20,874 bases of DNA, taken from NCBI GenBank assembly GCA_020080175.1, contig JAGHQL010000272.1, positions 1 through 20,874 of the forward strand, written 5' to 3'. Below the pieces are notes generated by a model that searched no databases, had not been told where the DNA came from, and saw only the letters and a list, made by a program, of their open reading frames with translations. The stretch's first letter is position 1. The number at the start of each line of letters is the position of its first letter. Origin of the DNA: Glutinoglossum americanum (Eukaryota > Ascomycota > Geoglossomycetes > Geoglossales > Geoglossaceae). Below, in pieces: positions 7,716-20,722 of this stretch. The position numbers and the translations under genes are program-made.

Positions 7716-9912
7716 ATGTTGACTAAGGTCGCCATTTTGGCCGCGATGATGGGGGCTGCGAGGGGGATGATCGGTGACGGTGGGTGGAGGATGAAGACAG
7801 GCCTACGGTTGGGCTTTAACTGATCGGTGAATAGGTTGTGAATTTGCTGGTGTTGGTCAAGTCGTCGGTACGACAATGGGAAAGGGAGTACCTGCGCCAG
7901 GTAGCCACGGCAGTTCTCCTGGATCGAACAGCACGTCTGACTGCCATGTCTGCTCGTCATCATACTATCTTCCAAAGTTCCTTTCGGATGGTGTGAGTAG
8001 TACCATTCGATTTTTCCAAGATGTACGCTAACATGTTTGGCTTTAGCCCATGGCTGGTGGCTGCCCGTGGGGAGGTTTGACCGCTAACAACACCAACCCG
8101 TTCGGCGGCGGTGACGCCCCGGATACCGGTGTCACTCGATCCTTTAATTGGACCATCAAGCGCGCCGTCGGTGCGCCAGACGGAGTGGAGAAACCCATGA
8201 TTCTCGTCAACGACCAATTCCCAGGTCCGGCCATTGAGGCCAATTGGGGTGATAACATTCAGGTGACAGTCACCAATGAGATTACTGACCCGGAGGAAGG
8301 AACGCATATACATTGGCACGGGTAAGATGTACATCTTTGCCTCTTGGTTCTGTATGCTGATGGTATTAGATTCCTCATGCATGGAACTGTCGCGGACGAT
8401 GGTGTACCAGGTGTTCAGCAATGCCCAATCGCACCGGGCCAATCTTATACCTTCAATTTCAAGGCTGAGCTCTACGGTAGTACTTGGTGGCACGCTCACT
8501 ACAGTGCTCAATATGGTTCTGGTGCCTTTGGGCCAATGGTTATCTATGGGCCAAGCAACGTCGATTACGACATTGATATCGGTTCCGTTCTGTTGTCAGA
8601 TAACTATCACCGTGGCTACTTCGATATCGTTGAACAAGTCATGGGTGTTGTGCCGATAGTCGGTGGAGTGCCAAACGTGAGCTAATATGATGATTTATCG
8701 AATATTTATTAATATTATCGACAGATTCCCGCCATCATTCCAGTGTCGGATAGCAATCTGATCAACGGCAGGAATGACTTCGATTGTTCGCAGATCACTG
8801 ACGGAACACCTTGCACACCTAATGCTCCACTTGCAGAATTTCAGCTCACTCCAGGCAAGAGTCATCGTATCCGCATTACCAATGCTGGTTCCGACGGTGT
8901 TCAGAAGTTTTCTATTGATAACCACGAGCTCCTTGTCATTGCGAACGATTTTACGCCAATTATTCCATATACCACCAATATTGTTACACTAGCTGTAAGG
9001 TAGACCGTCCTTCAATCTGTTGTCGTATTAACTTGATTTCTAGGTTGGTCAACGTGCCGATGTCATCGTCATGGGGCTCGCTGACGGCGCCGGCTCATAC
9101 TGGATGCGTGCTAACCTGACTGGCTGTGCCCCTTCTGCTAACCCATTGGCTAAGGCTATCGTTCATTACGATTATTCGACTGATTTGCCAACCTCGACTC
9201 CTTGGCCTGACACTAGTACCGATCCTTGTGCTACTGATGACCTCGCTGGCCTTCAGCCCTGGTTTCCAATTACTCCAACCGCGGAACCTGATACTACAGT
9301 CACCATCGATATTTCTGGCACTATCAATGCCACAGGCCACTTTGTCTGGACTATGAATGGGTCTTCATTCCGTGCAAATTACAATCACCCAACTCTGCTC
9401 TTAGCCAACGCTGGAAACACCTCGTATCCGTTTGATCCTCAATGGAATGTCTATAACTTTGGTAGCAACAAGACCGTTCGGTTCATCTTCAACAACAAGT
9501 CACCCGCGGCTCACCCTATGCACCTTCACGGGCACAATTTCTTCGTGTTGAATGCCGGTCCAGGTGAATGGGATGGCACCATTATCAACCCAGAGAATCC
9601 ACAACGTCGTGATACCCAGGAAGTTCTCGTTGGCGGATATCTTGTTGTCCAGATTGATATGGACAACCCAGGTGTCTGGCCATTCCATTGCCGTGAGTAT
9701 CCTATATCCATATTACATAGGTTAGGCCATTGTCGTTAACATTTTGCATAGACATTGCATGGCATATATCTGGAGGGCTTTATATCAATGTTATGGAGCG
9801 CCCTGCAGACATTGAGAACATCGAGATTGATGATGATGTCATCCAGGTTTGCAAGGATTGGGCTGCATTCACCAACACCGAGCTACCCAATGAAATTGAT
9901 TCTGGCGTGTAA
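7716..9912 (+). CDS. Secreted laccase (ascomycete multicopper oxidase)
   Basis: Laccases oxidise phenols and reduce O2 to water; close relatives in ascomycetes also act on dihydrogeodin-like polyketides. There are seven exons: 7716-7779, 7835-7992, 8047-8321, 8370-8676, 8725-8994, 9044-9692 and 9752-9912. The six introns are 48-59 bases and all GT-AG, and the joins keep one frame of 627 residues. Copper motifs are all present: HWHG (H163, H165), WWHAHYS (H207, H209), HPMHLHGH (H515, H518, H520) and HCHIAWH (H573, C574, H575, H579). Leu584, ten residues after the T1 cysteine, is the axial position. The start is the first in-frame ATG and gives a hydrophobic leader MLTKVAILAAMMGAARG. The protein ends in DSGV, like the C-terminal plug (DSGL/I/V) of ascomycete laccases. 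Uncertain point: an alternative first donor after 7773 gives two fewer residues. The gene stands alone, with no pigment or polyketide genes beside it here. Confidence 0.93.
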
Positions 9913-10384: not shown

Positions 10385-10724
10385 TGTTATTTTTTCTGTA
10401 TTTTTGCTTTTTTTAATTGCAGTTGGTATAAGCGGTACACTCCGCAGCACGGCGAACCAACGGCCGTCTCGTGTAACGCATAGGGGCGGGACCGGACTAG
10501 ATTTCGGCGGCCGTTCTGTGATTGGCGGGAGGGAGCAAGTACCGGTACATGTCGCCCGGAATGTAGACCTCCGCCCAAGCAAATTGACATCGTCGTTGCA
10601 ACGCGCTGTGAGCGACAAGCGGTAGGGTCCTAGCCATAGATAGTCCCGATATAAATGCGTCTTGTTCACACTCTACTACGCTCCCCCTGTACGATCACCG
10701 CCCTAAGGCGGGCTCACCATAACA
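10385..10724 (+). mobile_element. LTR-like fragment, possibly gypsy type (weak)
   Basis: The segment begins TGTTAT and ends ATAACA, a 6-bp inverted pair with the TG...CA boundary of LTRs. It is GC-rich in the middle and has a TATA-like GATATAAATGCG near 10650, followed by a start-site-like pyrimidine stretch, as LTRs do. A second possible left edge is the TGTAAC at 10472. I find no matching target duplication and no second copy in the window. It could be an old fragment or chance. Confidence 0.25.
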
Positions 10725-12950
10725 AGCGCAGCAGTTTGTCAATAGTCAGATCTTACTAGCAGTAGAAACGGCAGGACCCCAGTAAACTATAAGGAGGCCA
10801 AAATAGCGGTCGAAGAGTATCACTTTCCGAAAGAGGGTTTGCAACCCGAGATGGCTGGAAAGGGAGTTTTTGTACTTTGCTGGAAATGGAAGGGGAAGCC
10901 GGGGGTTGGTCGACCGAGGGGAAAAAAGTAAGTTAGAAGCTAAAAAGGGCATAGGAGAGGGAGCGGGTGAAGCTCAGGATAAAAGGGTGAGGCGGGTGCG
11001 AAGGTCAGAGGAGGGTGAGCGGTTTTAAAAGCGGCATGCTTTGAGTGAGCCGCATGTGAGCTCGGGGCAGATTCTACTCTTCTTTAAGCGCCAAGCCTGC
11101 GTCTGAAGAGCTTCAAGCAAACACGTCCGAAGACAGCTCTTTAAGAATAACCACTTTCTGCAGGACTGGGACGGAAAGAGCAAGCTTATTATATGTTCAT
11201 CTAAGCTACAAGGTATATCTTTAATTTTTATCTACAATGCACACCCTACGACACCGTGTTGGTTGCCTTAGCACTGTCCATTTCATCCAGCTACGCCTTC
11301 CAAGAGCCCTTGATACCAAGCATTGCAGAAAGACCAGGGTGCTGTAAACGCACCTTCACAACCTCATTTGCTGCCCCTCAACCCTCCATCATGACAAGGA
11401 ATTTACACCCACGCTGGAGGATGTAGTCTCGTGGTTGCCCATCATATTGCTCAGTAAAGGAACAGAAGGCATATCGCCAAAGCTTTAGGGTTCGTAGATG
11501 TCTTAGAGGATGGAGAGAGCACCACGTTCCAGTGCCCGTTAGACGATGCCTTACTTCGAGAAAAGAGGCAAGTCCACGTCATTCAGGGGCCGATGGCGTA
11601 GTCCAAGTAGAACCCTGAGACACCGGACCCCCAGATTCTCGTGAGAGCTCTTATTCCCGCTCATTTCCTCACCGCTCGAGTATAGCGGAAAGGCAGTCTC
11701 CATCATGTTCTCCACCAGGGTTGACCGGCGCATGCTCAGTGCTTCACCACAACATGTAATCAGCTAGTGCATGATCCATTGGTCCCACTAAATCACCCCG
11801 CCAGGTTCGCCGCTACACAGTCGCCCCTATCCAACCCTTCTCCAGCTGCATTGCCGATGCACTGCCCAGTTTTCCAGTCCGAAACAGGAGTCTGGAGGAG
11901 TAAGACTAGTATTGAACTTCATCCATCGTAACCACGTCAAATAGAATATTCCAATGTCATTCGGCGATAACCAGAGATACGGACACACGGAATCCCACGA
12001 TCCCCTGCAGACGGCCTAGGTGAAACAGCTCGAGGCGAGCTGGAAGTTGGTACACACATACTCCACCGCCTCGGAGAACCAATTGATATAAGCCTTGAGG
12101 CGTTAGCGCACTAGGACTTGCCGCCAGAAGGCGTCATTCGCAAGCCCTCTGGCCGTATCATCCAGCACATCTATGCTCCTCTGCACACTCATCCATGTCC
12201 ACGCTGCTGGCTTCGCCTCCGAACGTCCTCCCGACCTGGTGCCTGCCCTGAAAACTTCTCCAGTAACCACCAGTCTCATCGTGTCTCACCGGAAAGGCAC
12301 CCTACCACTTTGTTCGACACATATTCCTCTCCTCTGGGATTCATCTGACTCGTGAGGCGAAAGGGGAAACACCTTGTTGAATGATATGTATAACAGATAA
12401 TGACCCACAGAAAGATGTAGAAGAATAACATAACGGTCATAAGGGATTATTTATATTGCCCAGGTACATAGTATTTATTCTGATAAGTGTTTCACGGGAC
12501 CCCCACAGTTCCACTTCCATTGTCCACGAGTGTAACCAAAGGTAGTGGCTCTGCCTCTAAGGTCTATGGAAGCAACACAGCATCTTGCCTGCCACGGTAA
12601 ATACCCAGGCACGAGGTGCGAGGCTTCGACCCCTTTTCTAACCTTTCCACAAAGCTTAGTGGGTTCCCTCACGTTCGACCGCAGTAGCGATAGATTTAAC
12701 GTTACTGCTGGCGTACCCCGACCCTCCTAAAACTGCCACATAGCACAAGGGCCGGGAAAGAAGAGCTGGTAACCTCATGTAGGTATTCCATTCCCTGACG
12801 AACCTGGAGAATAATAAAACCAGAGCGATTGCGATCCCGGGGGCGGGGGCTGGCACTCATCATCACCATGGTGGACTAGTGTACCCCGGGTCAGCTGTTA
12901 AGGGATCCAAACATGGGGCGGGGGGGGTGAATATTGCGGTGGGACAGGGC
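10725..12950. other. Gene-free stretch with faint decayed coding traces
   Basis: No intact gene is visible. On the plus strand near 11244 a frame reads PYDTVLVALAL, and near 11399 another frame reads EFTPTLEDVV. In that order and spacing these recall the plant-mobile-domain (aminotransferase-like) family, which has a YDT..V..AL helix followed by a TPTLEDV motif. No further match was found downstream, so this is only a hint. The remainder (11.5-12.95 kb) has short frames with no domain. Confidence 0.3.
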
Positions 12951-13731
12951 GTAGTGCGTCAGATGAGACGCGATCCCAAAGATTCAATGGCTCGTGGGAA
13001 GTCGAAGTCGTAATTCGAAGGAATTCTATACTTGTCCATTAGCCTCAAGTATGGAGAAATGGAGGGAGGGGCGGGGCAGTGCATGTATGAATGCCGCCAA
13101 TTCAGAAAATACCTCATCAGAGAGTAATGTTAAGGGTTGAGAGGAGGAGGGAAATGGCGATGATTTTATATTGTCGCTCGGCGGAGGCCGACAAAGCGGC
13201 AAGCGAGACGTCAACCCCAAAGCGGCAAGTCTAACTGGAAGCGGGGTAATTCATCGGAAATAATTATATATATGTAGTTGCTCATGCGAAGGCCGAGGAA
13301 GCGGAGGTTCGTGAGGCGAGGCAGGCCTTAAACGTGGCTTCGTGCCCGCGCGCAACCACATATATATATATATTTTATCTTAATGGACTCGCCTCCGTGT
13401 ATGGAGGCTGCCTCGATCGGGTAAAGCGCGCATCACCTGATCGCTTGCCGCTTTTTCGTCCCCCGCTGGGTCACGAACATAAATTCATCGCCATTTCCCT
13501 CCTCTTCTTGACCTTTACCCTCGCCCATTTTCCACCTCCGATCCTACTCCTAGCGTCGCCTCGATGAGGTATTTTCTAAACTGGCGGCATTCATGCATGC
13601 ACTTCTCCCCTCGCCTGTCCATTTTCATTTCCCGTGTCTCAGGCTAACAGACAAAGCATAGGGCTCCTTCGAATTACATCTTCCTATGAGCCATTGAATC
13701 TCTAGGATCACCACTCATCTGGCGCACTCGC
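12951..13731. repeat. Long imperfect palindrome (foldback-like element)
   Basis: The left arm (about 12951-13281) and right arm (about 13352-13731) are inverted copies with scattered changes and small gaps, around a short unpaired centre. Clear paired blocks are 13081-13118 with 13563-13600 (35 of 38 matching), 12981-13000 with 13681-13700 (18 of 20), 13144-13166 with 13482-13504, 13194-13206 with 13441-13453, and 13274-13281 with 13352-13359. All five differences in the first two blocks are transitions. There is no transposase and no convincing coding frame inside. It could be a foldback or MITE-type element, or an inverted duplication. A transcript through it would form a long hairpin RNA. 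Confidence 0.85.
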
Positions 13732-14843
13732 TGCAGCTGGATACCCCCTGACTCACCTCGGCACTGTCAGCGATCGTGAAATTGTACGGCGATCGAAGGT
13801 CATGTCATCTCACAAACGCATTTCGTTCTCCCCCCGGAGGGGTCCAGACTCGGTGGCAAGCTGAGAAGACGATCCTGCTGCACGATCCTCCTAGGCAGCA
13901 ATGGCCAGGTCCATTCTTGCTCCGCAGAGTCACTGGTCTGCGGACGATCGGAAATCACGTCCTCCTACAAGCTCCGGTCTGTCCGTGTCTAGATCCCCCG
14001 CTCATGGCATGATGAGCTGAGAAGATGGCCCTACCATGCGATCCTCCCGGGCAGCAATGCATCTCGCACCCCCCCACCTCTTTCTCCTTAATTCCAGAGC
14101 TCATCGGCTTGCTAGGGGGTTATGTCTCGGCGATTCCCTAGGCAGGGGAACGGCCTGCATCTTCGCACATGTCATTTAGCAAGGCGTCTCTCTCTCCGCC
14201 CCATAACTGGCCAGACGAACCACAGAGGAAGGGAATGTGTGCCGAGCAGGGATAGGCACAAGATCGGGAGAACTTTCGGAGGCGGAGTCAGCAGTGTGGG
14301 CATGGATGAGTGCACAAGGAAGCGTAGCTGTGTTGGATGTCGCGGCCAGAGGGCTTGTGAATGACGTCTTTCAGTAGCGATTCTTAATGTGCCAACGCTT
14401 CAAGGGCTATGTCAATTGGTTTTCTGAGGTGGCGGAGCATGTAGCTTGGAATAGCTTGATCTGGAGGAGACGGGATACGGAGGTGTGTGTCGGCCTTCAA
14501 CTCGCTTCAAGCTGTTTTACTCCAAAGCCCTTCTTCAATTAGGTGACACCGAGACCGCTTGCAAGAGATTGCAGGATTTTGTGTGTCCATATTTCCCCTG
14601 ATTGGCACCGAATGACGTTGGAATGCTCCACTTCCGTGAGGCAAGGCAGGCGTGGTTCCGCGGGCGGGGTTCACTAATACTACTCTTACCCCCCGGGCTC
14701 TCCTATTTCGGTATAATGGAGCTACTTCGGAACAATGGCAAACCGGGCAGTAAATTAGCAATACATTGGCCATGCAGTCGGGTGAGAGTTGGATTGGGTG
14801 GCCTTTCAACTGCGCTCAGACAGCAAGGAAATGCTTTGACTAA
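13732..14843. other. Gene-free stretch with a dispersed direct repeat
   Basis: A pair of related 45-bp segments is noted separately. Otherwise only short frames without domains are visible, such as an 80-codon plus-strand frame at 14122-14364. Part of 14.4-14.84 kb may be decayed upstream exons of the membrane-anchor remnant that follows, but I could not trace them. Confidence 0.4.
13859..14059 (+). repeat. Two copies of a ~45-bp direct repeat
   Basis: Copy one is 13859-13903 and copy two is 14015-14059. Both begin AGCTGAGAAGA and both end in CGATCCTCC followed by GGCAGCAATG after two variable bases. The middle dozen bases differ. The copies are 156 bases apart and not linked to any gene I can see. 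Confidence 0.7.
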
Positions 14844-15107
14844 GCAGGATATAGAGCCTATACAAGATTGGGGCTGGGGGTTGGAGTTCCGCTTGCGGTC
14901 ATTGGTATTGGCGCCTTACTACTTGCATTATTTCTCCAGTGGCGTCGTCGTCGTTGCGAAGCGGGTACCAGCCAAAACATGGAACAATCCCCTGGAATCC
15001 TGCAGCCATCACCTCATAGCGGACAAAGTTGGGATCGGAACATGGCGACGTATGAGTTGAATGAGGCGCATGCACAACGGCAAAGGAGTGAGCTGCCCGG
15101 TTTATGA
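14844..15107 (+). pseudogene. Membrane anchor and tail of a surface protein, 5' part missing
   Basis: The frame reads TRLGLGVGVPLAVIGIGALL and continues as a single hydrophobic segment, then a stop-transfer run WRRRR and a short hydrophilic tail ending RSELPGL. This is the usual end of fungal secreted Ser/Thr-rich proteins anchored by one transmembrane helix: a T(K/R)xGLGVGVPL lead-in, a helix, an Arg cluster, and a tail rich in Gln, Pro and Glu. A possible splice acceptor (GACTAAGCAG) ends at 14847. I could not find a signal peptide or an extracellular domain upstream in any consistent exon chain, and the frame has no good start codon before the helix. It may be the last exon of a gene whose upstream exons I failed to recognise, or a relic. 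Confidence 0.45.
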
Positions 15108-15581: not shown

Positions 15582-15956
15582 GTCTCTGTTGGAGGTTATG
15601 GAACGAACGAGGGAACGGGAACGAGCATGTAAGTAGAATATATATATTAGTCTAGTTAATTGAGCTGAGTTCCAGCTACCTACGAAGTGAGAAGAGTCCT
15701 TATATACCCGTTCCGTGGCAAGGCCACGTAATACAGTGGTGGCAACCTGCCACGTAATGGAAGCAATCCGAATGTTGCTTGGTGGCGGTGGCAATATCCA
15801 ACAGTCTCCTTCATCCAACACTTCATCGGTAGTAGTATGGTCTTGGATATTTGCTTGCTTGACTGCAATCGCGAAATTGGTAGGGGTAGCGTCGTTTGGC
15901 TGGCCATCGCAAGGTGGAGTCGCTGCTTCAGAGGACTGGCTCTGTACTAGAAGGGA
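15561..15956 (-). other. Open minus-strand frame of 132 codons running through the solo LTR
   Basis: The frame is open from the stop at 15957-15959 to the stop at 15558-15560. Before the LTR it reads a low-complexity Ala/Thr/Asn-rich stretch and then TTTDEVLDEGD. After it, SEREEEE closes the frame. The LTR plus its duplicated 5 bases is 222 bases, 74 whole codons, and holds no stop in this frame, so the host frame stays open across it. A possible acceptor (CTAATCCCTTCTAG) lies just at the upstream edge, so this could be a last exon on the minus strand. No domain is recognised, no start codon is evident, and coding status is unproven. Confidence 0.3.
15587..15803 (-). mobile_element. Solo LTR of a Ty1/copia-type retrotransposon
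   Basis: The segment is 217 bp, starts TGTTGGA and ends TCCAACA (7-bp inverted termini). It is flanked on both sides by the same 5 bases, GTCTC (15582-15586 and 15804-15808), a perfect target-site duplication. The TATATAAGG box (plus strand near 15698-15706) points to transcription on the minus strand. No internal retrotransposon genes are present, which is what recombination between two LTRs leaves behind. The intact termini and duplication suggest a fairly young insertion. Assignment to copia rests on the TGTTGGA...TCCAACA ends and the small size. Confidence 0.85.
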
Positions 15957-16361
15957 TTAGCTGTCGGGATCAGGGAGGCATTGAATCAGCAGATGGGGGG
16001 GACGTTGGGGACATCTCCTTTCAAGACATGAAGCTTACTCCTGTTACTCCTGGTCGTCCCGCCCTTCAAGAGCCGTTGATTTATCTCGGACTCCAGGAGA
16101 ACGACGGCCTGATTGAGAGAGCAAATCTTACTCAACCGAAGTAATGGCCACTTCAAGCTGTAGTTGAAGTTGGGTGGACGGATTAGATTCGAAAGAGCTT
16201 CATGAGGTAGTTGGCCCCAGTGGAGTTGAATCTTTCGGACTTCTGTCTACACTCTGGCGATGAGCAGTTTGTGCTTCTCCAGGAACGCCTTCAACCTTTC
16301 TTTGCTCGTAGTCGACCTCACCCTTGAGGGACTCGAGGGATTCATATCGAAACTCCCATGA

Positions 16362-16556
16362 TCAATTCGCGACAAGGTAACCCCAAGCGGCTGTCACGAC
16401 CTCTGGCACCTGCTCGTTGATCTGCTCTGCAGCATCTAGTATGTGGAGAACATCCACGAGTTTCTCTTGTTTCGAATCGATCCCATCAAGCTGGCCATGG
16501 ATCCCCTCGGCAATCGACTTGGTAAGCCCGTCATCACTGTCAATTGAGAGTTCCAT
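16362..16556 (-). pseudogene. Coding-like minus-strand fragment, unknown family
   Basis: The 64-codon frame starts MELSIDSDDGLTKSIAEGIH and is acidic and helix-forming, with a heptad-like run (LVDVLHILDAAEQINEQV). After its stop the same frame carries on with coding-like sequence (ESLESLKGEVDYEQRKVEG) to about 16200, and another frame there reads TSKERLKAFLEKHKLLIARV. This mixture looks like a host gene that has decayed, perhaps the same gene whose last exon holds the solo LTR. I do not recognise the family. It may instead be unrelated short frames. Confidence 0.25.
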
Positions 16557-17407
16557 GATGTAGTCATGTAGGAAAAGTTTGTCGAGGGAATAATAGGATT
16601 AGCCATCGAATGAGGGAGGCTCTAAGCCTCAAGCAAAAGAAAGTGGGGCAAATCATTTCCTGCCTCGATCTTGTTATTCGCCAAAAGTACATAATTGCCA
16701 TGATAGTACGCTGCCAGTCGGTTGACGGCGTACCGTCATGACAAATAACCTCATATTAAGTATAAATGCTCATATTATTAACGGCTTCTATTTTCATCCA
16801 TATTCTTTGTTAGGGTAGAAAACATTGGTCAGCGAATGAGAATGGGATTAGATATTCTTTATGAGAATTTGTGAGCAAGTACGTTTTCTGATTTCAAGTA
16901 TATTTTTCTGCCTGAAACTTGATGGGTTATATTCGGAGTACCGACCGGAAACGGAATGTGAAGGATGAAAGTGGTACTAGTATAGTATGATTCTCCTATG
17001 TGTCTATAAGACCCTTGTTAATGTCATGGGCGGTGTGAACTCACAGCAACGCCGAGCATGCAGTGATTAGCGATCAAAATCAGTGGAATGGCCGGTGTTG
17101 AAATTGCTAAAAGACTGTGCCTCATCGTTATCTTAGTTCAGCTTCGTCATCACGAACTCCGGTGGAAGGCCTCCGGCCTCCCACTTCTATATAGTATACT
17201 AGCTTTTCATTTTCAAGAATTAATCAAGACATTCCTCGATGCCCGAAGGCCAACGACATGAAAGACGGCATGAACATAATTATTCCGTCTAACAAGTACT
17301 AAAATGTAGAAAATAATCCATTCTGTGCTTGTATTTTCCAGCCGTGATGCAACATCTGTAAAGACAAAAGGAGTTTTTGGTTGAATAGTGATCGGGTTGA
17401 AATCCGA
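16557..17407. other. AT-rich intergenic stretch
   Basis: No gene is seen. The right end (about 17280-17407) is the 3' flank of the minus-strand membrane-protein gene. A short inverted pair (GTACGCTGCC / GGCGTAC, near 16708-16734) is present but is too short to interpret. Confidence 0.4.
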
Positions 17408-19174
17408 CTAGGGAATGGTTGGATCCATTGTAAAACTCTCTTTGGGGTTCTTCGGTGGTGGATGTTGCTGTATCCGCCCACGCCCAGAAACCTTATGGTA
17501 GAGAACAAGGTTCTCTAAAAATGCATCTTCGGGCTCCGGTGGTCTGTGGTAAGCCTCAGCTACTGCGATCGGGTTTAGGCTGATAGGGTGCTCAATATTA
17601 GTGACATGCCCTCCATAACCGCCAGTAGGCACCTCCTTGGGGCTAAATGCCGCCTCCGTCCGCGGGTAAGCGAAAATAATAATAATTGAAATGAGCAACG
17701 CAGTGGACATGATGCTGAGTGCCGAGATCCAGAAGCCTCTCTTGATATAATAGAAGGGTACCTTATCTATCTCTTCGACCGTGAAGTTCGCCGTCGTCCC
17801 ATTATTCGATTTGAGAGCTGTCCGGAAGGTTATCTCGTGAAGCGCGCTTAGGATATCTTCAGTCGGGGAGCTGAACTGACGGGCACAGCTAGTGATAGCA
17901 TCGTAGTGAGTGTCATTAAGATCGTAGTACAGTCCGGCTAGCGATCCCTTCATGTCGATGTCATATATTCGCGTCGTTCCATTATAATCGACCGTGGCAT
18001 TGGACAGGTAGTATGCATTAGCAAAGCCGGCAAGTGCAGTCAGGGGACCAGCCCCCCAATCTAGCTTGGTAGCGTTCGAATCGCCGGTGGATTTGATAGG
18101 TATATAGGTTCGATCGTTACTAACTATATGTAACTGACTCATGTCGAGTCTGACCGTCTGGTTAGAAATGATCACTGGGTACTTGATGGTCGACATCCAA
18201 ATGTCGCAGGTGTCGATGGTGACACTTGCACCGCAAGAGTCGTTGACGGCAGTAACGTATTTAGCGACAACTCTCAGCGTCGGATAACCCCACTCATTAT
18301 CGAATCGATCGAAGTTGGTTGAGAATACCAATGATCCGTTCCGATATGGATCATTAAGAACAAGGAAATCAGTAGCCTTTGCGCAATGCCATATGATACC
18401 GGCACCGGGAACATCCCCCGTGCATACCCCAGGGCAAAAGTACTCCTGTTCCAATCCAGACATGGTAATAGGTTCCCTGCGATACCATTGCTGCATGATT
18501 GAAAAGAAGTTGTGGCTGAATGAAATATTTCCGGGTTTGGCGGTGTTAATAGCCCCGCTCCAGCCGTCAGGTATGCGTACTGGGAAATCCAACTTCATGA
18601 CTCTATTTGTGACCTGATCTTGAGTTCGGACATCCATTGCTTGCTGCAGCAAAGGACCGCTGAGGAAATTTGTTACTGCAACAATCAAGGCAACGACCGC
18701 TAAGGTTTCCGCTTCCCAATTATCCTTGAGTTTCTTCCCATGCCCAAACACCTGGTGCCCAGCCTTGAAGATGCCGCACACGCCACCAGTACCATACTCC
18801 CAGATCTGACTGAGTTTGCGTGTTTGTGTGCCACGCACGGCCGTCCGCCACCAGATGATGGTAGTAACATGCGTAATCACCGCTCCCAGGCAAAATACGT
18901 AAACTGAGGACATGATATTGAGGATCGTCGTAGGTTGAATATATTTGAACAACTTCCTGCTTGCATTGGTCTTTCCATTCATGAAATCGACGAAGACCCC
19001 AGAACCAACAGTGCACACAGTTGCCCCCACATATAATAGCATGAGAAGTGTTTGGTTTCCCATGAAGGTGTGGAATTCTTGGCTTCTGATGAAGGCGAGG
19101 AATCCTCGGAATTTTCGGTTTCCGATGAAGGGGAGGGACTTCCACCAGCGTTGGGTGGATTTCTCGCTGTCCAT
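17408..19174 (-). CDS. Four-pass fungal membrane protein of unknown function
   Basis: This is one uninterrupted exon of 588 residues, with the start at the first ATG after an upstream TATA-like element. Predicted helices lie at about residues 42-64, 84-108, 157-177 and 480-503. Between helices three and four is a 300-residue loop with about ten N-glycosylation sites (for example NIS 216, NGS 279, NQT 338, NAT 392, NFT 463) and six cysteines (247, 251, 264, 314, 323, 430), so it should face outside. The N-terminus and a Pro-rich tail of about 85 residues should be cytosolic. The GPLLQQA motif at 173-179, ending helix three, together with this layout matches a large family of uncharacterised ascomycete membrane proteins, related in my judgement to the DUF3176 type. 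No enzymatic motif is seen. The gene appears intact and is flanked by relic-rich DNA on both sides. Confidence 0.85.
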   Translation of the reverse strand: MDSEKSTQRWWKSLPFIGNRKFRGFLAFIRSQEFHTFMGNQTLLMLLYVGATVCTVGSGVFVDFMNGKTNASRKLFKYIQPTTILNIMSSVYVFCLGAVITHVTTIIWWRTAVRGTQTRKLSQIWEYGTGGVCGIFKAGHQVFGHGKKLKDNWEAETLAVVALIVAVTNFLSGPLLQQAMDVRTQDQVTNRVMKLDFPVRIPDGWSGAINTAKPGNISFSHNFFSIMQQWYRREPITMSGLEQEYFCPGVCTGDVPGAGIIWHCAKATDFLVLNDPYRNGSLVFSTNFDRFDNEWGYPTLRVVAKYVTAVNDSCGASVTIDTCDIWMSTIKYPVIISNQTVRLDMSQLHIVSNDRTYIPIKSTGDSNATKLDWGAGPLTALAGFANAYYLSNATVDYNGTTRIYDIDMKGSLAGLYYDLNDTHYDAITSCARQFSSPTEDILSALHEITFRTALKSNNGTTANFTVEEIDKVPFYYIKRGFWISALSIMSTALLISIIIIFAYPRTEAAFSPKEVPTGGYGGHVTNIEHPISLNPIAVAEAYHRPPEPEDAFLENLVLYHKVSGRGRIQQHPPPKNPKESFTMDPTIP

Positions 19175-20404: not shown

Positions 20405-20485
20405 TAAAAAGGATTTTCTATGTATCAAGTTAAAAATCTCATCGTCGATCTCCCCACCGGTTTCGTGCTACCGACTTCTTATGCC

Positions 20486-20584
20486 GGAGGCCTACTACAA
20501 AAGTTGTGGGTCTTCGCCGCTTTTACGGCTAGCTAAGCCTCAGTTAAAATAGCGAGAGACCCACAACTTTTGTAGCAGGCCTCC
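20486..20584. repeat. Near-perfect 99-bp hairpin (MITE-like inverted repeat)
   Basis: The left arm 20486-20512 (GGAGGCCTACTACAAAAGTT plus GTGGGTC) pairs with the right arm 20558-20584 with a single mismatch in 27. Pairing continues inward (TCGCCGCTTTTA with TTAAAATAGCGA), leaving a loop of about 18 bases around GCTAGC. A weaker outward match (GACTTCTTAT near 20473 with the reverse of ATAAGGAGTC near 20600) suggests a slightly larger element. It could be a small MITE nested near the transposase relic, or part of that element's end. Confidence 0.8.
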
Positions 20585-20722
20585 GAAGTAATTATCAATA
20601 AGGAGTCAGATCCAGAAGCAGATTCCGAGCAGTGCGAGATACCTCGATGCAAAACATGCGTACAAGTTCTAGCAAATGGTGAAATCGCTCGCAAAAATAT
20701 CTTTAAATTGCCGCAAAAAGAC
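20576..20722 (+). other. Short open frame with a C-x4-C-x2-C motif
   Basis: The 49 codons are open between stops at 20573-20575 and 20723-20725 and contain CEIPRCKTC. There is no start codon in frame. The composition is protein-like: an acidic Glu/Asp/Ser stretch, then the cysteines, then a basic end NIFKLPQKD. Its first few codons fall in the right arm of the hairpin. It may be an exon or a relic of a host gene into which the hairpin inserted, or chance. I do not recognise it. Confidence 0.25.

Follow-up and report, generated by a model that had tools for sequence, protein, structure and literature searches.

Foldback elements have long inverted arms and little or no coding content, and an imperfect palindrome in Glutinoglossum americanum resembles them in these respects; it differs from them in that its arms lie mostly unpaired elsewhere in the genome and come from different subfamilies of one repeat, here called E. 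Palindromic loci of Naumovozyma castellii are described as prolific in siRNAs (PMC7528652) and, as characterised there, share with this palindrome their inverted repeats, a transcript that would form a hairpin and RNAi-type gene families in the genome, whereas the arms of the present locus are only 69% alike and are known from sequence and predicted folding. Elements associated with TA microsatellites are known in plants (PMC4486113, PMC5907723), including MuTAnT in Medicago and SaTar in guayule and rice, which in those accounts resemble E in their association with TA repeats or microsatellites and in the arrays formed by neighbouring elements. MuTAnT and SaTar are plant Mutator-like DNA transposons, whereas the E copies examined yielded no terminal inverted repeat, no target duplication and no transposase. 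The central 88 bp of the palindrome share with Ty3-like solo LTRs the TG...CA ends, a 4-bp target duplication and membership of a family in which one LTR pair encloses gag-pol pieces; the LTRs of this family, at only 70-88 bp, may be unusually short. Judged from its sequence, the palindrome probably arose when three pieces of mobile DNA happened to insert into, or beside, one another within a repeat island.

The window corresponds to an entire contig (C193; 20,874 bp) from an assembly with 317 contigs and 25.77 Mb in total, and its features are collected in Table 1, in which C and L numbers denote contigs and loci. The initial annotation described positions 12951-13731 as a 780-bp imperfect palindrome. 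Inverted arms within 12953-13728 are far above chance, as claimed (E = 1.1e-36 against the window in a gapped reverse-strand self-alignment), but the length does not hold, as inverted similarity in the reverse-strand self-comparison continues beyond 12951-13731, giving a pair that extends over approximately 11.8-14.8 kb, and the evidence points to three insertions in place of a single element. The self-comparison also contains weaker inverted blocks (11939-12022 with 14547-14633, and 12311-12389 with 14167-14248), while the middles of the two copies, at about 12400-12935 and 13793-14160, are dissimilar. For the left-copy middle at about 12400-12935, neither the right copy nor, by genome search, any other place gave a match.

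Table 1. Positions of features in the window.
Feature	Position	Strand	Remarks
Multicopper-oxidase pieces	8344-8685 and 9071-9739	+	flank the repeat-rich stretch
Left E copy	11176..13272	+	(TA)n end at right; subfamily with L041, L045 and L046
Left outer arm block	12056..12244	+	against 14254-14442: 189 nt, 78%, gap-free; outside 12951-13731
Left inner arm	12935..13272	+	83% to L041; 69% to right inner arm, aligned columns
TATA, left target duplication of the putative solo LTR	13269..13272	.	4 bp
Putative solo LTR	13273..13360	- (sense)	88 bp; plus strand reads TGTAGTTGC...GCAACCACA
TATA, right target duplication of the putative solo LTR	13361..13364	.	4 bp
Right inner arm	13361..13728	-	from self-alignment; 89% to L040 (16-copy alignment)
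Right E copy	13361..~14800	-	(TA)n end at left; nearest relative L040 on C292
Right outer arm block	14254..14442	-	pairs with 12056-12244; outside 12951-13731
DUF3176 frame	17408-19174	-	flanks the repeat-rich stretch

The five differences in two short blocks of the arms had been described as transitions. The 38-base block with 35 matches is present at 13078-13118 against 13563-13603, and its three differences are all transitions; the 20-base block with 18 matches cannot be assigned to one place, as several 20-base blocks score 18-20. Transversions are present in the arms as wholes: of the differences within the 320 aligned columns of the inner arms, 63 are transitions and 36 are transversions, and the outer 189-nt block has 41 differences, of which 35 are transitions and 6 transversions. 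The differences in this outer block are spread 14/17/10 over the codon phases and thus give no clear coding signal. The reported lack of coding content was borne out by Pfam searches, in which nine stop-free pieces of at least 46 aa covering 12478-13564 matched no family at an E-value up to 0.1. A further 108 pieces of at least 50 aa, taken from window positions 10700-12500 and 13360-14850 and from five related loci, likewise gave no match with an E-value under 0.05.

A search of all contigs with 12951-13731 gave 52 matches in the genome. Once the window itself and hits confined to the central 88 bp are set aside, the arms have matches at 17 or more further sites; querying with one related E copy contributed at least six sites and querying with the outer parts about nine more, all of these site counts being lower bounds. 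Twenty E stretches (96 kb) were taken for mapping of the arms, and 14 of them (L040-L053) hold inner-arm sequence. Twelve of these 14 hold unpaired copies, including L043 with two copies 6 kb apart, and the others are one tandem pair (L042) and one inverted pair (L047). Because copies elsewhere are mostly unpaired, the arms of the palindrome are, on sequence comparison, two copies of a dispersed, apparently non-coding and decayed repeat. The inverted pair on C116 (L047:1789-2159) is a second tail-to-tail arrangement, consisting of truncated E copies approximately 60 bp apart.

This distribution bears on the foldback element that the initial annotation offered as one possibility, here taken as a true foldback or long-terminal-inverted-repeat transposon with the arms as its ends. 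Inverted arms of hundreds of bases without detected coding content agree with such an element, but the 14 other loci with inner-arm sequence contain a single inverted pair, that of truncated copies in L047, neither member of which falls in the left-arm clade of the inner-arm tree. The inner arms belong to different subfamilies, the centre is occupied by what appears to be an unrelated solo LTR, and no common outer ends were found among the copies compared, making a foldback transposon very unlikely. The evidence points to a product of mobile elements in a broader sense than had been suggested, and not to one element. Other self-inverted matches, in L043, L046, L049 and L051, are not pairs of E arms. 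Another family with long inverted arms is present at L046:2817-3930 (244 nt, 79%, gap-free), with relatives at L040:4646-5001 and L072:1950-3501, and may answer the foldback description better than the palindrome does.

The left E copy has matches on C252, C1, C233, C5, C21, C118 and other contigs. Two matches to L057 had pointed to 11234 as an end of E, but this was rejected because the match to L055 extends further, to about 11176. Outward from there, as far as about 11090, likeness to L055 is marginal, with a score of 22.5 where the best of 30 shuffles reached 20.0. The remaining lengths of E are about 1.4 kb in the right copy and at least 2 kb in the left copy. In C118:28821-29130 (L061), the inner end corresponding to 13204-13276 is joined directly, at a sharp joint, to 11384-11625, as if this copy had lost the part matching window positions 11626-13203 by internal deletion. 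Among nine other E copies inspected, a clear (AT)n edge is present in five (L040, L041, L042, L043b and L044), a short AT run lies at the match edge in three (L043a, L046 and L049) and L052 has none; the flanks beyond the AT-rich edges are dissimilar among the nine. We infer that E transposes, a statement kept at this strength because no convincing target duplication was found in eight single copies inspected and no complete E among the copies examined.

The origin of the inverted pair was assessed from an alignment of 16 inner-arm copies and an outer-arm test with 10 rows. The right inner arm is closest to L040 (89%; C292) and the left to L041 (83%; C252), and the inner-arm tree separates them, placing the left arm with L041, L045 and L046 (support 93/99) and the right arm with L040 (87/82), in a tree in which 8 of 13 inner branches have support below 80. 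A single inverted duplication of one E copy, by template switch or fold-back repair with later divergence, would account for the same order of inner and outer blocks in both arms. Forcing the inner arms together lowers the log-likelihood by 99 and is rejected (p-AU 9.5e-5), whereas forcing the outer arms together is not (difference 5.9, p-AU 0.127), so the outer parts, which may reflect gene conversion or an old duplication, do not decide between the two histories. The inner arms are also nearer to copies on other contigs, with which they have end types and indels in common, and the left copy reaches about 11176 while the right ends near 14800, all of which makes a single duplication improbable.

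Inverted pairs are also a known type of artefact, and a fold-back chimera of the assembly or of a read would yield such a pair; the initial annotation had named an assembly chimera as something that would refute its reading. The arms of such a chimera would be nearly identical, whereas here 31% of aligned inner columns differ and each arm has its own nearest relative elsewhere in the genome, making this origin highly unlikely. Of the readings compared (an inverted duplication, a foldback element and a read chimera), none appears to fit as well as two tail-to-tail insertions at a (TA)n tract.

The central 88 bp, which begin with TGT and end with ACA, are read as the solo LTR of a Ty3-like retrotransposon, antisense in the window. 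Used alone as a query, this sequence matches 13 other places, and a shorter relative used as query adds C257:121797, giving 15 with the window. Duplications were judged in 14 inspected copies, a set outside which the C257:121797 copy falls. Nine of the 14 have an exact 4-bp duplication on both sides (TATA in the window, CCAG three times, CATG, TTAG, ATAA, TAAT and GTTT), against approximately 0.05 expected (14/256). The five copies with no exact duplication are L031, L032, L035, L037 and L039, of which L037 and L039 form the LTR pair of a single element and L035 shares its internal edge with L039. Two sets of three copies are identical (L028-L030; L033, L035 and L036), which suggests that the family moved recently. 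On C257, two opposed LTR copies lie 1.2 kb apart (121797-121874 and 123052-123129), the second with the purine tract of a 3' LTR. A scan of viral contigs with the LTR gave no match.

The solo-LTR reading derives from a relative on C16, in which an LTR pair surrounds gag-pol pieces. This Ty3-like element of approximately 5.5 kb (C16:70764-76290; L037, L071 and L039) has very short direct LTRs of 78 bp at 70764-70841 and 76213-76290, with one difference in 78 positions and CTAA outside both. The first LTR is followed by C-TGGTAGCAACAGC, so that TGGTAGCAACAGC, one base on, forms a putative primer-binding site, and the second is preceded by GAGGGAAGGAAGGG, placing a purine tract inside the LTR pair. 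Seven open pieces, searched separately, follow the Ty3 order of gag, protease, reverse transcriptase, RNase H and integrase: gag matches Ty3_capsid and Retrotrans_gag, and there are matches to RVT_1 and RNase H, an aspartyl protease match (RVP_2 above its cut-off and two other families just below) and matches to rve and Integrase_H2C2 below their curated cut-offs, the last two of the seven pieces having no Pfam match. The gag frame is open and the pol frame has stops between the reverse transcriptase/RNase H and integrase pieces, so this copy is probably dead. Two other identities considered for the centre, a MITE and a Ginger-like element, the latter on account of the TGT...ACA ends and 4-bp duplications (comparison drawn from PMC2836005), were dropped on the evidence of the C16 LTR pair with its purine tract and gag-pol pieces. 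This family, with its short LTRs of 70-88 bp and its two groups of three identical copies, could readily be taken for a MITE.

Some traits of E recall non-LTR retrotransposons, namely the (AT)n edge and variable far ends, yet the C118 copy looks internally deleted and no convincing target duplication was found in the eight copies inspected. None of the 22 RVT_1 matches in the genome adjoins a known E copy, the nearest being 3.9 kb away on C158. E as the 3' end of a LINE was rejected, since 3.5 kb of C267 downstream of an RVT_1 match resembled another repeat and none of the E portions in the loci compared. Three of 55 DDE_1 matches lie 1.5-3.2 kb from E (C103, C107 and C116); the idea that E forms part of a DDE_1 element was set aside because a comparison of the DNA beyond E on C103 with the far sides of C107 and C116 gave no good match, the best E-value being 0.024. 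A tRNA-like string seen by eye near the L041 copy was likewise discarded, ARAGORN finding no tRNA in L040-L059.

Repeat-induced point mutation (RIP) had been offered, beside ordinary deamination, as the source of the arm differences. With thresholds of product above 1.15, substrate at or below 0.75 and composite above 0 (PMC7882544), positions 12951-13731 have a TpA/ApT ratio of 0.65, a substrate index of 1.43 and a composite index of -0.79, and the composite index is negative in all 13 stretches tested. Three of 21 1-kb windows (from 3001, 6001 and 10001), all outside the palindrome, have a slightly positive composite index and fail the substrate threshold. Counts of C-to-T change, with the majority of the other E copies as a proxy for the ancestor, give CpA 59/386, CpC 79/499, CpG 76/378 and CpT 50/479 over all copies, indicating no CpA preference. 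These values do not support RIP, and the differences between the arms agree with ordinary mutation. By contrast, C-to-T changes are abundant in one other copy, L046 (CpA 13/36, CpC 15/42, CpG 16/32, CpT 6/42; G+C 0.36), perhaps through some mutational process directed at C.

The surroundings of the palindrome contain further repeats on the side of the DUF3176 gene (15587-15781, 15843-16625 and 16839-16975), and relatives of the first of these lie approximately 0.8-1.2 kb from DDE_1 matches on C109 and C197. An element-like inverted repeat at 20485-20585 has 29-nt arms, 97% complementary and separated by 43 nt, with no flanking duplication obvious by eye. Positions 1-83 form a near-pure G run at the contig start, perhaps an artefact of the contig edge. 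No Rfam family over its threshold and no tRNA were found in the window, and a search of solved structures with one oxidase piece gave none at 1e-20.

Elsewhere in the genome, a few E copies have NLR-type genes (NPHP3_N with ankyrin/TPR, PNP_UDP_1, CHAT) at a distance of up to about 2 kb: among the 20 E stretches, NPHP3_N or NLR-like PNP/Ank/TPR/CHAT matches are present at L043, L045, L048 and, just below cut-off, L059. Tandem repeats in L047, with DNA like that of L043, had no Pfam match. A rough control with 35 of 41 pieces from LTR loci, four Ty3 pieces and two L072 pieces having been left out beforehand, contained no NPHP3_N and two ankyrin pieces, in a comparison of small numbers and differing stretch lengths.

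The nesting of three insertions can be set out as a sequence of events. The repeat island between the multicopper-oxidase gene and the DUF3176 gene would have taken up two E copies of different subfamilies, oppositely oriented and meeting at their (TA)n ends. If the end or the target of E is a self-complementary (TA)n, it could have let the second copy settle beside the first, and, because (TA)n reads alike on both strands, a neighbour could be added in either orientation. The 88-bp Ty3-like LTR, now solo, would have arrived last, landing in the joint (TA)n tract and duplicating TATA. The result resembles the usual debris of mobile DNA rather than an element of a new type, and the locus is probably without selected function, any hairpin RNA being a by-product.

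The initial annotation also suggested a small-RNA source. The alternative that the inverted pair is a hairpin-RNA locus, whose transcript would be cut by Dicer into siRNAs against the E family, was weighed against predicted folding and gene content. The two strands fold at a predicted -409.8 and -401.4 kcal/mol (z -17.8 and -20.9), far better than shuffles, none of 20 per strand folding as well, and the longest uninterrupted predicted helix is 33 bp. Piwi matches are present on four contigs, several of them partial or with stops, and Ribonuclease_3 matches on three contigs, paired on C168 and C112, and the siRNA-producing palindromes of N. castellii offer a precedent (PMC7528652). Production of siRNAs from a transcript of the palindrome is thus possible, but any inverted pair folds, several Piwi matches are broken or partial and, given arms with just 69% identity, any siRNAs would be a poor match to the majority of E copies. 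A hairpin-RNA locus acting on E is accordingly regarded as unlikely, and chance nesting of three insertions is retained as the preferred account.

A long palindrome that gives the impression of one element can consist of three insertions, which is of consequence for the annotation of repeats and for the prediction of hairpin-RNA loci from sequence alone. A broader proposal, that a self-complementary (TA)n end leads E, through repeated insertions, to form tail-to-tail pairs which, when transcribed, become sources of hairpin RNA directed against the E family, is considered quite unlikely. If true, it would provide an accidental and recurrent route to small-RNA loci in an RNAi-competent fungus, and, if tail-to-tail pairing at (TA)n ends is common, a simple way for genomes to gain hairpin loci.
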